A stretch of DNA of 41,419 bases from positions 1 to 41,419 of the forward strand of contig CAINVV010000170.1 of NCBI GenBank assembly GCA_903854235.1, given 5' to 3'. Every line of letters begins with the position of its first letter. The stretch's first letter is position 1. The stretch is from an uncultured Bacteroidia bacterium. GTDB lineage: Bacteria; Bacteroidota; Bacteroidia; Bacteroidales; Prolixibacteraceae. The notes under the pieces are model-generated. The model searched no databases. It was given only the letters and a program-made list of their open reading frames with translations, and was not told the DNA's origin. Of the stretch, positions 19,891-40,337 are shown one piece after another. The position numbers and the translations under genes are program-made.

Positions 19891-21141
19891 TTAGATGACG
19901 CCGTCATCGTAGGCTTTCTCACCGTGCAGGGATTGATCCAGCCCTAATTTCTCCTCCTCTTCCGATACCTTAACGGGTGTGATCTTGTTGATGATGATCA
20001 GCATCAAATAGGTGAAAATGAACGCATAGGCGGATGCCGCAACAACTGCCACCAACTGTTTGAAGAAGAACATTCCTCCGCCGTAGATGAGTCCGTCGGC
20101 GCCCGAAGCATTGACCATCTTGGAGGCGAAAACACCCAACAGAATGGTGCCAAAAACGCCACCAATACCATGAACACCCCAAACATCCAACGCATCGTCC
20201 CACTTCATCTTGTTTTTAAACTGTACGGCCAGGTAGCACATGATACCGGCTGCCGTTCCAATGATTGGCGAAGCCCACAGCGGAACAAAACCCGCACAAG
20301 GCGTAATGGTTGCAAGCCCGGCAATAGACCCTGTAAGAAGTCCGATAAACTTGGGTTTGCGTTCTCTGGTATACTCAATCAACAACCATGACATGGTCGC
20401 AAATGATGCTGCTATGTCGGTATTTAAAAAGGCCAGGGAGGTAACATTGTCGACCTGACATTCGCTGCCTGCATTGAAACCATACCAGCCAAACCAAAGC
20501 AAACCACTGCCAATGGCAACCAAAGGAATGCTGTTTGGGGTCGAATTTTTGTCCACCCTTGCTCCAACATACAACACCGATGCCAATGCTGCAAAACCGG
20601 CCGTAGCGTGGACCACGATACCGCCTGCAAAGTCGATGACGCCCCATTGAGCCAATAGACCACCACCCCAGATCATGTGCACAAAGGGATAGTAAACCAG
20701 AATTTGCCATACTGTCAGGAAAAGGAAATAGGATTTGAAGGTTACACGATTGACAAAAGCACCCGTGATCAGTGCCGGAGTAATGATGGCAAACATCATC
20801 TGGTAAGCAATGAAAACCATTTCTGGGATTTTACCATTGCCGGCCCAAAGCGTATCTGTCGCAATTCCCGCAAGGAACGCCTTGTCAAAATTGCCGATAA
20901 TTCCACCTGCACCACCGCTAAAGCAGAGGGAATAACCGAAGAATACCCATAAAACGGTCGTCCAGCCCAGAGACACAAAGCTTTGTATCATAATGGCCAG
21001 GATATTGCGTTTGGTGGCCAACCCACCATAGAAAAATGCCAGTCCCGGTGTCATGAGCATGACCAAACTGGTCGCCAGCAACATAAAAGCAGTTGAACCG
21101 GTATCGAGCGTACCAATGGTCAACAACATAGCGTTTAACAT
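19891..21141 (-). CDS. amtB: Ammonium transporter
   Basis: A 416-residue Amt/Mep/Rh channel of the inner membrane with about eleven membrane segments. The twin pore histidines are His178 (GGIVVHATAG) and His324 (VWGVHGIGG). The Amt signature DFAGGIVVH with Asp170, the opening ATSLVMLMTPGLAFFYGG (about 23-40) and FGWYGFNAGSECQ are all present. The C-terminal tail holds TPVKVSEEEEKLGLDQSLHG, the region that contacts PII proteins in other bacteria. No glnK lies next to it, which is unusual for amtB. It has its own promoter and terminator and is followed by a two-component system in the same direction. Confidence 0.95.
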   Translation of the reverse strand: MLNAMLLTIGTLDTGSTAFMLLATSLVMLMTPGLAFFYGGLATKRNILAIMIQSFVSLGWTTVLWVFFGYSLCFSGGAGGIIGNFDKAFLAGIATDTLWAGNGKIPEMVFIAYQMMFAIITPALITGAFVNRVTFKSYFLFLTVWQILVYYPFVHMIWGGGLLAQWGVIDFAGGIVVHATAGFAALASVLYVGARVDKNSTPNSIPLVAIGSGLLWFGWYGFNAGSECQVDNVTSLAFLNTDIAASFATMSWLLIEYTRERKPKFIGLLTGSIAGLATITPCAGFVPLWASPIIGTAAGIMCYLAVQFKNKMKWDDALDVWGVHGIGGVFGTILLGVFASKMVNASGADGLIYGGGMFFFKQLVAVVAASAYAFIFTYLMLIIINKITPVKVSEEEEKLGLDQSLHGEKAYDDGVI

Positions 21142-21242: not shown

Positions 21243-21537
21243 GGCAGGCGTTTGGAAGGGATTAACTCGCCGGTGCGGAATACAAACAAGCTCCCCCTTC
21301 GTTTGAGCGTAGCGTTAACGAGGGGTAGCGGGACTTCATCACCGATTTCGCCTTTTTCACGCAGAATTCTGCGCTTGTACTGCTTCATCCTGCCTGATCG
21401 GATCTTCCTGAAACAATTCAATTATGTAAATCAGATAAAATGGTTTAGGTTGGTGGTCAGATTCAAACAGTTCGATTTTGCATTTTTGGCCTCTTTGGAA
21501 GACCTGAGGAAGGGTGGGTTTGGCCCATTTTTGATCG

Positions 21538-21789
21538 GTGACGGACGATAGATCGATGGTGACAGGTCATTTGTGCGTTGTGACAGGCATTGGGACGTTG
21601 GTGTCAAGCCCTTTATGTGTGGTGACAGGCGCTTGGACGCGTGTGACAGGTCAAAAGGGTCGTGTGACAGGGCCAAAGTAGCGGGTGACAAACTATTTTC
21701 GGCCGCTTACAGACGTTGGAAGCGTGGTGACAAGCGTTGTGAGGCTGGTGACACGACCTTTTTGAAAGGTGACCGCAGATGGAGCGTAT
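21538..21789. repeat. Array of twelve 21-bp units with a GTGACAGG core
   Basis: Units start at 21538, 21559, 21580, 21601, 21622, 21643, 21664, 21685, 21706, 21727, 21748 and 21769, exactly 21 bp apart with no slippage. Eight or so positions at the start are kept (GTGACAGG; ten of twelve begin GTGAC, the exceptions being GTGTC and CTTAC). The remaining 13 differ from unit to unit. 21 bp is two turns of B-DNA, so every core faces the same side. One plus-strand frame reads as heptads opening with Gly-Asp-Arg and is open over eleven units (to 21821). A minus frame reads Leu-Ser heptads but is interrupted. It may be a binding array or a decaying coding repeat. Confidence 0.9.
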
Positions 21790-21826
21790 TTCTCATATTA
21801 TGTTTCGCAAGGTGGTTTTGAAAAAG

Positions 21827-21859
21827 TTTTGCTTTTCTCCCAAAAATGTAGTATCTTAA
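21827..21859 (+). promoter_or_regulatory. Candidate promoter of the 21910 gene
   Basis: TTTTG (21827-21831) is followed after 20 bp by TATCTTAA (21852-21859), a partial match to TAnnTTTG. It supports translation starting at the ATG at 21910 rather than at the GTG at 21769. Confidence 0.45.
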
Positions 21860-21909
21860 TAAGCAGTAAGGATTTGCATACACTTAAATCACCCTTAAAT
21901 CTAATTGTG

Positions 21910-22845
21910 ATGAAATCAAGACAAGACAGCAAGTTGAGTATGTACCTCGCGACAAAGGATTTTCTGACCAAGAATGCCGCGGTGGTGAATCCACTTCCGA
22001 ACTATTCGGGCTACTATGACGCCTTCGTGGCGGCCATTGCTAAGATCACGGCCGACAGCGAACAGCAGAAATTCGACAAGAGCGGAAACAAGACCTTCAA
22101 GTTGCAGCAAAAAAATGCCCTGGTGGTACTTACCGTCGACACGGCTCGCCGTTTGCAGCTTTACGCACTGCAAATCAACAATCCGTTGTTACGCTCCGAG
22201 ACCCGGTATACCGAGAGTACACTGCGAAACTCTTCCGACAATGCCTTGCAGAGGGAGGCGCACGGAGTCTGGAGCCGCGCTCAGGAGAACCTGGAGGCAC
22301 TGGCCCCCTATGGCATCACGGCTGCCACCCAGGAGGCCCTGTTAAATGCCGCCAACGGTTACCAGGAAGTGATCCCTAAGCCGAGGGTTGGAACCTCCGA
22401 AACCCACCAGATAACCCTGCAGCTGACCGTAGGATTTGCCGCCGCCGACAGTGCGCTAGAAAACATCGATGGAATGGTGGAGATCGTGCGAATCGCGCAA
22501 GCCGACTTCTACAATGGCTACAGGTCGGTACGGAAGACCATCCATACCGGCCACACACTGATGGCAGTAAAGGGACGGGTCACGGATGCTGCTGACGGGC
22601 AGCCGCTAAAAAACGTGCTGCTCTCCTTTGCCCCGACTGGGAACGGACGAAAACTGCAAATGGCCCAGCTAACCAGGCCTTTGGTCAAGAAAACGGCGAA
22701 GAAAGGGGGCTTCAACGTGAAAATTCTTCCCGCCGGAAGCTATTCCGTTTACATCCAGCGCAGCGGTTATGCCGAGCAAACGGCCACGTTGGCGGTCACT
22801 GAAGGTATTATGAGCGTATTGAATGTGCAGCTGGCGCTGCTCTAG
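21910..22845 (+). CDS. Unassigned protein with C-terminal carboxypeptidase-regulatory-like domain
   Basis: A 311-residue protein with no signal peptide or membrane segment. Residues 1-215 look mainly helical and match no family I recognise (MKSRQDSKLSMYLATKDFL, then a conserved-looking VVNPLPNYSGYYDAF). Residues 220-311 form an Ig-like CarboxypepD_reg domain: VKGRVTDAADGQPLKNVLL, then GGFNVKILPAGSYSVYI and GYAEQTATLAV. The ATG at 21910 is chosen. The open frame extends back to a GTG at 21769, but that would run through the 21-bp array and the candidate promoter. It ends in a GC-rich terminator. The lack of a signal peptide is odd for such a domain, which is usually extracytoplasmic. Confidence 0.8.
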   Translation: MKSRQDSKLSMYLATKDFLTKNAAVVNPLPNYSGYYDAFVAAIAKITADSEQQKFDKSGNKTFKLQQKNALVVLTVDTARRLQLYALQINNPLLRSETRYTESTLRNSSDNALQREAHGVWSRAQENLEALAPYGITAATQEALLNAANGYQEVIPKPRVGTSETHQITLQLTVGFAAADSALENIDGMVEIVRIAQADFYNGYRSVRKTIHTGHTLMAVKGRVTDAADGQPLKNVLLSFAPTGNGRKLQMAQLTRPLVKKTAKKGGFNVKILPAGSYSVYIQRSGYAEQTATLAVTEGIMSVLNVQLALL

Positions 22846-23420: not shown

Positions 23421-23466
23421 TTAGCTGTTAGTCATTAGCATATTAGCATATTAGCAAATTAGCATA
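23421..23466 (-). repeat. Octamer tandem repeat abutting the M13 stop codon
   Basis: Four units TTAGCATA, TTAGCATA, TTAGCAAA and TTAGCATA (23435-23466, period 8) are preceded by two 7-bp variants (TTAGCTG, TTAGTCA). They end 2 bp before the stop codon of the minus-strand M13 gene. The sense reading is TATGCTAA. Confidence 0.85.
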
Positions 23467-23468
23467 TG

Positions 23469-25565: not shown

Positions 25566-25742
25566 TGATAAAACCCCAAGGGTCAAACCGATGGTTTGTT
25601 AGACACTTTTTCGGTAAGAAAGTTACACGCCATGCGAAAATAAGAGCGGATGGCAGCAATGGGTGCGTCGTATTCCGATTAGCCGATTAGGATGGTGGCA
25701 GAATGTTGCAGATACAATTCGGAAATAGCATCACCCGGGTCG

Positions 25743-39452: not shown

Positions 39453-40337
39453 TTATCTTTGTCTGCTGTCCTTTTCTTGTTTAACAGGTTTGGTCTCCTT
39501 GATCTTTATATCCTCTGCCTTCTTCATGTTGCGCAGAACCCTAACCGGGCGACCGATATCTCTGCCGTAATAGTTAACGGCCTGTGAAGGATGAGTTTGT
39601 TCAACCTTTCTTTCGGGGAAGATGCGCTTAACTTCGCTGTTCTGCCTAACTTCATTGTTTTGACGAACCTCGCTGTTCTGCCTAACTTCATTGTTTTGAC
39701 GAACCTCGGTATTTTGTCTTACTTCGTTGTTTTGACGAAACTGGTTGTTCTGTCTGCCTTCCGTGCGGGTATTCACTTCTGGCCTTGCACTGTTTCGGAA
39801 GTTGTTTGAGTTGTTCTCCCTGTTTCCTGGACGGTTGAATACGATGTTTCGTGCATTTTCATTGAACCCGCGCAAGGGACGATTTCTGTCGCCGTAACTA
39901 TCCCTGTAGAGGGTACGGTAATAGAATCTTGGATAATGTGCAACATAGTAGTGGAAATGTCTCCAAGGTTCCATGACGCGTGCATCCAGTGCCACGACAA
40001 AGCAATTTTCCAGATCGAACCAGGCATAGACTGGTGGCAAGGACCTGCTAAACATCCATTCTCCATCTTCCATGTAAATGAATTCACGACTCCTTACATC
40101 GTAGTAACATTCGATGTCTGGAAGGTAATAATAGTGCACCAGTTCCGCATTGTCGTAATAGGGGGCCCAGGATGGCAGTTCAACGCCCACTTCCAAATCG
40201 AACCTTTGTGCAACGGTTATTGCGCCACAGCCGTTCAGAAGAAAGAGAGACATCATTGCGATTAAAACCGGGTAAGTCTTTTTGAGAAAATTTTGACCTT
40301 TGGGATGATCCGTGGTCGCATTCTTTAAAGTTTCCAT
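39453..40337 (-). CDS. Lipoprotein with hexapeptide repeats, function unknown
   Basis: A 294-residue protein. The lipobox LLNGC (Cys37) follows an unusually long basic N-terminus. Residues 40-140 are rich in Tyr and Trp (WAPYYDNAELVHYYYLPD, ECYYDVRSREFIYMEDGEW), a pattern common in Bacteroidota envelope proteins of unknown role. Residues 195-238 hold seven hexapeptides of the form Glu-Val-Arg-Gln-Asn-(Asn/Ser/Thr). The tail is Lys/Glu-rich. It probably sits at the periplasmic or outer-membrane face. It has its own terminator. A TAACTTTG box (40404-40411, minus) may be its -7 element, without a well-placed TTG. No enzymatic motif is seen. Confidence 0.8.
   Translation of the reverse strand: METLKNATTDHPKGQNFLKKTYPVLIAMMSLFLLNGCGAITVAQRFDLEVGVELPSWAPYYDNAELVHYYYLPDIECYYDVRSREFIYMEDGEWMFSRSLPPVYAWFDLENCFVVALDARVMEPWRHFHYYVAHYPRFYYRTLYRDSYGDRNRPLRGFNENARNIVFNRPGNRENNSNNFRNSARPEVNTRTEGRQNNQFRQNNEVRQNTEVRQNNEVRQNSEVRQNNEVRQNSEVKRIFPERKVEQTHPSQAVNYYGRDIGRPVRVLRNMKKAEDIKIKETKPVKQEKDSRQR
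39633..39758 (-). repeat. Seven 18-bp coding repeats
   Basis: Units start every 18 bp from 39633 and encode hexapeptides in the lipoprotein. Units 2 and 4 are identical and units 1 and 3 differ by one base, so a 36-bp higher-order unit was duplicated recently. Confidence 0.9.

Follow-up and report, generated by a model that had tools for sequence, protein, structure and literature searches.

What keeps a row of short DNA units at an exact period of two helical turns, and which molecule, if any, reads it? The question is raised by a 21-bp repeat array at 21538-21789 of the window, by which we mean the whole stretch of 41,419 nucleotides analysed here. The array consists of 12 units that advance in +21 steps, in the + orientation relative to the gene beginning at 21910, and all units are in register, as the sequence-only reading had described. 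That reading also gave the units a longer conserved core. A core is real, with GTGAC present in 10/12 units (the exceptions are GTGTC in unit 4 and CTTAC in unit 9), but it is shorter than claimed: GTGACA is found in 8/12 and GTGACAGG in only 5/12, so the core is best written GTGAC(A). Nor do 13 of the 21 bases vary freely, as had been supposed; the non-core columns are weakly informative, and the 12-unit consensus, GTGACAggc..T..g.gg.tg, carries 18.4 bits overall. The window array contains 0.904 bits/column over its 12 units; among 60 simulated first-order Markov sequences of the window's length (41,419 bases), none exceeded 0.458 at any period from 15 to 30. Three in-phase cores, scored for GTGAC, occur at 4 places in the bacterium's own genome, every one of them within the window array. 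A mobile-element boundary check made on the window array alone returned one weak flanking inverted pair of 16 nt (81% complementary; 21474-21489 and 21840-21855), which brackets the array and may reflect chance or an element boundary.

The array lies, as had been stated, between amtB (19891-21141, - strand) and an unassigned gene on the + strand (ATG at 21910). Its description as a feature of the amtB region was, however, mistaken. None of 16 homologue loci, 9 of the amt family and 7 of the M13 peptidase, has an array (16 loci scanned among 29 returned; the amt loci include a single close orthologue, 67% identical, and most others are 44-46% identical), and the array recurs instead beside homologues of the right-hand gene. 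A tie to amtB or to the M13 peptidase was rejected on these counts, and amtB, whose 9 array-less relatives come from genus-mates and the bacterium's own genome, is judged to lie outside the element. The right-hand gene, hereafter the partner gene (21910-22845, + strand), encodes a protein of 311 aa in a family without a name; a longer GTG start is also in the ORF list, and the ATG at 21910 was chosen because homologues align from there. The 120-bp spacer between array and start codon (21790-21909) presumably carries the promoter of the partner gene. A TAnnTTTG box is found at -150 to -20 in 28/137 family genes versus 5/137 in a downstream control stretch.

Association of the array with this gene family was assessed on homologue loci gathered by protein similarity. 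A 21-bp array lies within 1 kb of the gene in 136 of 174 distinct loci (118 upstream, 18 downstream), compared to 6/245 control ORFs, a set that includes overlapping and antisense ORFs and in which the six hits amount to 4 distinct arrays. Array and partner gene apparently form one two-part element, as judged from this co-occurrence. Redundancy among the 174 loci was reduced only where proteins agreed fully in residues 1-100, and close orthologues are therefore counted separately. Four further loci have too little flank, and 34 are without an array; the latter include three whose arrays are N runs and were entered as "without" (L046, L224, L232), several gene fragments, and L186, judged a spurious match. 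Intact family genes without an array also exist; three loci of Paludibacter and the majority of one subfamily are examples. Among the first homologue loci (L003-L015), 11/13 had adjacent 21-bp arrays with quite different letters, and the array mark of 0.85 bits/column was chosen after the first loci had been viewed. Another 60 loci were then taken along with 20 control loci from the same genomes; 82/97 gene loci lie above the mark, one of them an N run, and a blind scan of periods 12-40 found 21 to be the best period in 65/97 gene loci versus 4/20 control loci. Five locus names are duplicates, L148, L157, L152, L154, and L161 corresponding to L003, L004, L060, L064, and L005, respectively.

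The array depends on the partner gene and not on any neighbour. Neighbouring genes are mixed, the commonest neighbour cluster being present in 5/116 loci (flanks of ~1.5-3.5 kb). Where the array lies downstream, the gene that follows it differs among most close relatives, the exception being L053/L054 with a common recombinase-like neighbour, which indicates that the array goes with the family gene. Minority neighbours named by eye, each in 3-5/116 loci, are IS200-type and REP-associated transposases, type I restriction, DUF559-like, and recombinase-like genes; their recurrence suggests an accessory-genome setting for the family loci. Two arrays, L021 and L024, are in regions without a family gene. 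The first (L021/L252, G001:C6 near 88.6 kb) has window-like units (GTGAC ... TTGGATGAAG) on a contig with no family-gene match, between the end of a mutS2-like gene and a sensor-kinase-like gene (both named by eye), and is perhaps an orphan array. The second (L024, G057:C1 near 501 kb) has GTGACTGT... units at a 21-bp period; its genome contains no family match, and the array may be coding because one + frame runs through it. A 10-unit 21-bp array at L172:5016-5225, in random control DNA, has one - strand frame open and is either coding or another orphan.

A period divisible by three raises the possibility that the array encodes a heptad repeat, an alternative that the sequence-only reading had offered on the grounds of two open frames. 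The two ORFs exist (21573-21821, + strand; 21431-21691, - strand) and span most of the window array, but all six frames are stopped within its 252 bp. The same is true of 23/81 arrays, and 9 of 12 groups of related arrays share no frame that is open in every member, the three exceptions being pairs (the groups were hand-picked and cover 42/81 arrays). Twelve arrays examined for codon-position patterns showed no consistent one. Arrays closed in all frames are fewer than column-shuffled units would give (23/81 versus 33.6, s.d. 2.9), a point in favour of coding, and this excess of open frames may reflect within-unit correlations that column shuffling breaks. Control DNA also speaks for the general association of such periods with coding: arrays found there at periods 15-30 all had periods divisible by three, and of the six 21-bp arrays that passed the mark when 400 kb of random stretches were scanned together with the 20 control loci and the window, one is the window's own and 3 of the other 5 have an open frame, which suggests that chance arrays tend to be coding repeats. 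Because all six frames are closed in 23/81 arrays and the open frames disagree between relatives, the family arrays are not coding; we rejected the heptad reading and regard it as scarcely credible. A period divisible by three therefore need not imply coding.

The geometry of the arrays is more uniform than their letters. Unit letters vary between loci while the period of 21 is constant. Among 832 neighbouring core pairs in 81 arrays, 701 are spaced by exactly 21 and 751 by multiples of 21, and spacings of 19, 20, or 22 number 0/832; the core scan covered every register and 250 bp on either side, and the arrays themselves had been detected in a fixed register, which favours the 21-bp result. 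Units of the same kind at other periods, named earlier as the observation that would speak against phasing, were sought around the 81 arrays and were not found. These arrays have 8 to 22 units, mostly 10-13, with 8 also being the detection limit; 64 lie upstream of the gene (median 228 bp) and 17 downstream (21-279 bp from it), the downstream ones mostly in one subfamily. The longest array, at L149:5274-5924, has 31 units over 651 bp and lies 77 bp upstream of its gene. In L010, L013, and L015 two unit types alternate, giving a 42-bp super-period like that of paired sites. Two turns of B-DNA measure 21.0 bp. As 21 is 2 x 10.5 bp, all cores lie on the same face of the helix, and the fixed period with changing letters, the lack of off-by-one spacings, and the lack of a coding role argue for a geometry that is read on double-stranded DNA. 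A phased protein-binding array, as first suggested, is thus the best-supported reading, given the constant period and the slower change of the core, although protein binding itself is an inference from the arrangement.

Two readings dispense with a specific DNA-binding protein. The array could act as RNA, within a co-transcribed 5' or 3' untranslated region whose 21-nt units are bound or processed. Some arrays end 36-63 bp upstream of the start codon and others follow the stop codon closely, facing the same way; arrays keep their direction with respect to the gene; and folding scores are slightly below those of shuffled sequences (mean z -0.69 sense and -0.97 antisense; 15 shuffles each, 81 arrays). 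However, the folding signal is weak, more so on the sense strand, Rfam has no match in the window array (one sub-threshold match, E 0.72, lies outside it), and a flexible RNA would presumably not demand two exact B-DNA turns free of off-by-one spacing. An RNA family or structure was rejected on the Rfam and folding results, and action as RNA in general appears improbable. Alternatively, the array could be a structural or neutral element, either intrinsically curved DNA or a minisatellite kept by slippage, with no specific reader. Units are near-identical in some arrays, and arrays show slightly more curvature than their column-permuted counterparts (mean z 0.34, 52/81 above 0, Wilcoxon p 0.009; window z 1.9), in permutations that preserve the consensus dinucleotides and in a wedge-angle calculation. 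The curvature effect is nonetheless small, and curvature alone was rejected as an explanation for that reason. Core columns also change more slowly than the rest, the period does not drift between loci, and the arrays are tied to one gene family; a purely structural or neutral element is, in our judgement, more improbable still.

How the arrays diverge bears on the identity of a protein reader. Fifteen related array pairs were compared; L049/L052, L012/L045, L077/L078, and L126/L127 are clearly colinear, L060/L064 moderately so, and the remaining pairs not clearly. In the five colinear orthologue pairs, the eight best-conserved columns changed at 23/464 positions versus 129/754 for the others, a comparison that is partly circular because the conserved columns were picked from the same sequences. 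The three closest pairs have 0 gaps in 693 aligned array bases and 5 in 715 spacer bases, and all ten aligned pairs have 42 gaps in 2240 array bases (5 of them multiples of 21) and 67 in 1669 spacer bases; since alignment of diverged repeats is unreliable, these counts neither support nor exclude selection for register. The more alike two proteins are, the more alike are their arrays, with a similarity of ~0.28 where protein identity is below 30% and of 0.80 where it exceeds 80%; the trend is seen in only one of the two orientations. Shared descent would make any linked sequences diverge together, so this is no proof of contact. Against a reader encoded by the partner gene, letters differ at strongly conserved columns between the arrays of some proteins that are 84-92% identical (L110/L115, L051/L071, L100/L104, L070/L071), with L110/L115 and L100/L104 being paralogue pairs that each reside inside one genome.

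A reader need not be encoded next to its sites. The arrays could be phased operators or enhancers of the gene family, read by a separate trans-acting regulator, in which case the encoded protein would never touch the array. The position of most arrays (64/81 upstream, at the distance given above) fits such an operator, and the co-divergence of array and gene would be expected from linkage already. Against this, paralogues of one genome differ in their unit letters, as seen at five G001 loci, so that a single regulator could not read all arrays; 17/81 arrays are downstream of the gene; and no second gene recurs beside the element in flanks of ~1.5-3.5 kb. We consider a separate regulator rather unlikely. 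After a reader encoded by the partner gene, the remaining options rank, in falling order of likelihood, as separate regulator, then RNA action, then pure DNA structure.

A reader encoded by the partner gene would have to act through the part of the protein that defines the family. This is an N-terminal all-helical domain (residues 1-213; 21910-22548, + strand), delimited from the homologue alignment and the predicted structure, for which Pfam, NCBIfam, PADLOC, and PHROGs contain no convincing family match (no profile matched more than two of the 13 members, best E 0.00055). PDB sequences likewise gave nothing convincing (best E 0.007). The AlphaFold2 model predicts an all-helical fold (pLDDT 86.7, pTM 0.53), with which Foldseek returned no clear structural relative (best E 0.17). 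VIA-align placed 2rld_C, of the S23 family, at the top (Z 8.8, rmsd 3.4, 98 aligned) together with unrelated helical bundles that scored equally, and the absence of a standout family there proves nothing. The median pI of the domain is 6.1 across the family (9.0 in the window protein), which is atypical of a general DNA binder. The C-terminal domain (residues 220-308; 22567-22833, + strand) is transthyretin-like (PF13620, E 7.2e-12; structural match to 5aq0_A, Z 12.9, rmsd 1.4, 80 aligned). It is absent or swapped in relatives, and some relatives' C-terminal stretches match fibronectin- or Ig-like families, below the cut-offs of those families.

An exploratory scan asked which 13-residue window of the protein explains array similarity by its own identity, on top of what overall identity explains. 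The strongest signal covers residues 97-109 and stays high until 117 (r 0.39, 205 pairs; 0/2000 label permutations reached it). Residues 97-117 (22198-22260, + strand) form a short helix, turn, and helix in the AlphaFold2 model, and are a possible reading element, to be taken as a lead and not as a result. The signal rests largely on one clade of 15; when this is dropped, residue 5 becomes the site of the highest-scoring 13-residue window, with r 0.31 left at 97, and the signal is weak (r 0.16) inside the clade of 14, one of the two large clades.

The element extends well beyond the genome in which it was noticed. The first search found homologues of the right-hand ORF in 8/31 genomes, own included, and a search with an N-terminal domain profile then recovered family members from 58/140 genomes of the same taxonomic family, with up to 12 matches per genome; the window gene, itself a profile member, scored 5.7e-84, and other matches ranged down to the limit of 0.001. 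A scan of one genome per species yielded 24 loci, all labelled Bacteroidota save one Verrucomicrobiales MAG, with an array in 16/24. A phylum-wide search found the family in 18/395 genomes, own included, and an array in 23/29 loci, marginally matched proteins among them. A second branch, seeded from one marginal match, was found in 8/198 genomes, with 14 matches in one of them, and 25/30 of its loci pass the array mark, two being N runs. The two-part element is seen across the phylum Bacteroidota. The window N-terminal domain had no match in plasmid or phage collections, the second branch (L208 type) none in the plasmid collection, and alignment A4 of the family no confirmed match in IMG/VR; a plasmid, phage, or viral origin of the family was rejected on this basis. 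Among the family alignments, A1 and A2 omit L013, whose chosen coordinates overran a stop, and A5 and A6 omit L162 (an interrupted gene) and L170 (a near copy of L163).

Several known systems resemble the element in layout. Plasmid iterons are direct repeats of ~17-22 bp that lie close to the gene encoding the protein that binds them, and the 21-bp period falls in this range. An iteron-Rep origin would have a Rep initiator as neighbour, but Pfam searches with the window protein and 12 of its relatives returned no Rep family, and no homologue was found in the plasmid collection. In plasmid centromeres, a DNA-binding protein assembles on tandem direct repeats that adjoin its own gene, and in types Ib and III the site is upstream of the operon (PMC5016525). 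The likeness to parC/ParR, tubC/TubR, and type Ib systems is one of layout only: tandem direct repeats adjoin a gene, and the neighbour is the candidate binder. Those centromeres have a motor ATPase or GTPase gene in the operon, whereas here no neighbour cluster exceeds 5/116 loci in flanks of up to 3.5 kb; in addition, the family was not found in the plasmid collection, and its copies are chromosomal and many per genome. Searches against ribbon-helix-helix, winged-helix, and TubR profiles gave no match for the protein, whose predicted all-helical fold has no clear structural relative. The layout is centromere- or iteron-like, but the defining features that were looked for, a motor gene and a Rep, are lacking. 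Intergenic direct-repeat arrays are also known from the TAACTGA repeats, which are reported with up to 43 copies and in a few Bacteroidetes among other organisms (MacGregor, 2015; PMC4679880). As presented there, these are one fixed heptamer beside unrelated genes, in contrast to the locus-specific 21-bp units and single gene family described here. Resemblance to CRISPR is in appearance only, a regularly spaced core with variable letters in between; CRISPR arrays have near-identical repeats and unique spacers, whereas these units vary throughout and their 21-bp period leaves no spacer-sized gaps. Within the open-access PMC literature, we found no description of 21-bp phased arrays beside such a gene, and the two-part element appears to be undescribed so far.

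Overall, the explanation that we rank first, and to which we give about even credence, is that the array is a row of phased DNA sites whose likeliest reader is the protein of the adjacent gene, binding cooperatively through its helical N-terminal domain. By analogy with plasmid centromeres, the neighbouring protein is the economical candidate for the reader. The window array would then comprise ~12 putative binding sites, one every two helical turns, on which the N-terminal domains could assemble cooperatively as a phased row of subunits. Such a bound row might control its own gene, display the variable C-terminal domain at that chromosomal address, or both. An extension of this idea, which we hold more tentatively, is that the elements are chromosomal address systems throughout the phylum, in which each paralogue would have a private two-turn array and form a one-faced filament or ring displaying its C-terminal domain. 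The letters would drift or switch between loci under an unchanging geometry, and a single genome may then contain twelve or more protein-array pairs, each distinct from the others. If the encoded protein does read its array, these loci would represent scores of natural experiments with one geometry and changing letters, i.e., a data set on how DNA recognition changes, and might also supply orthogonal DNA-binding pairs.

Other repeats were noticed alongside the family arrays. A clean 21-bp GTGACTGCTCTAATTTG array at L025 (G144:C114) is a coding heptad (NLRGDCS-like) within a 183-aa ORF, in contrast to the window array. In the window itself, an 18/36-bp tandem array at 39629-39752 resembles a coding repeat on the - strand (VRQNNE-like hexapeptides) and is for that reason taken to be an ordinary protein repeat. 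Related octamers (ATTAGCAC, ATTAGCAT, CCGATTAG) also form short tandem arrays, at 71-106, 23434-23467, and 25675-25690.
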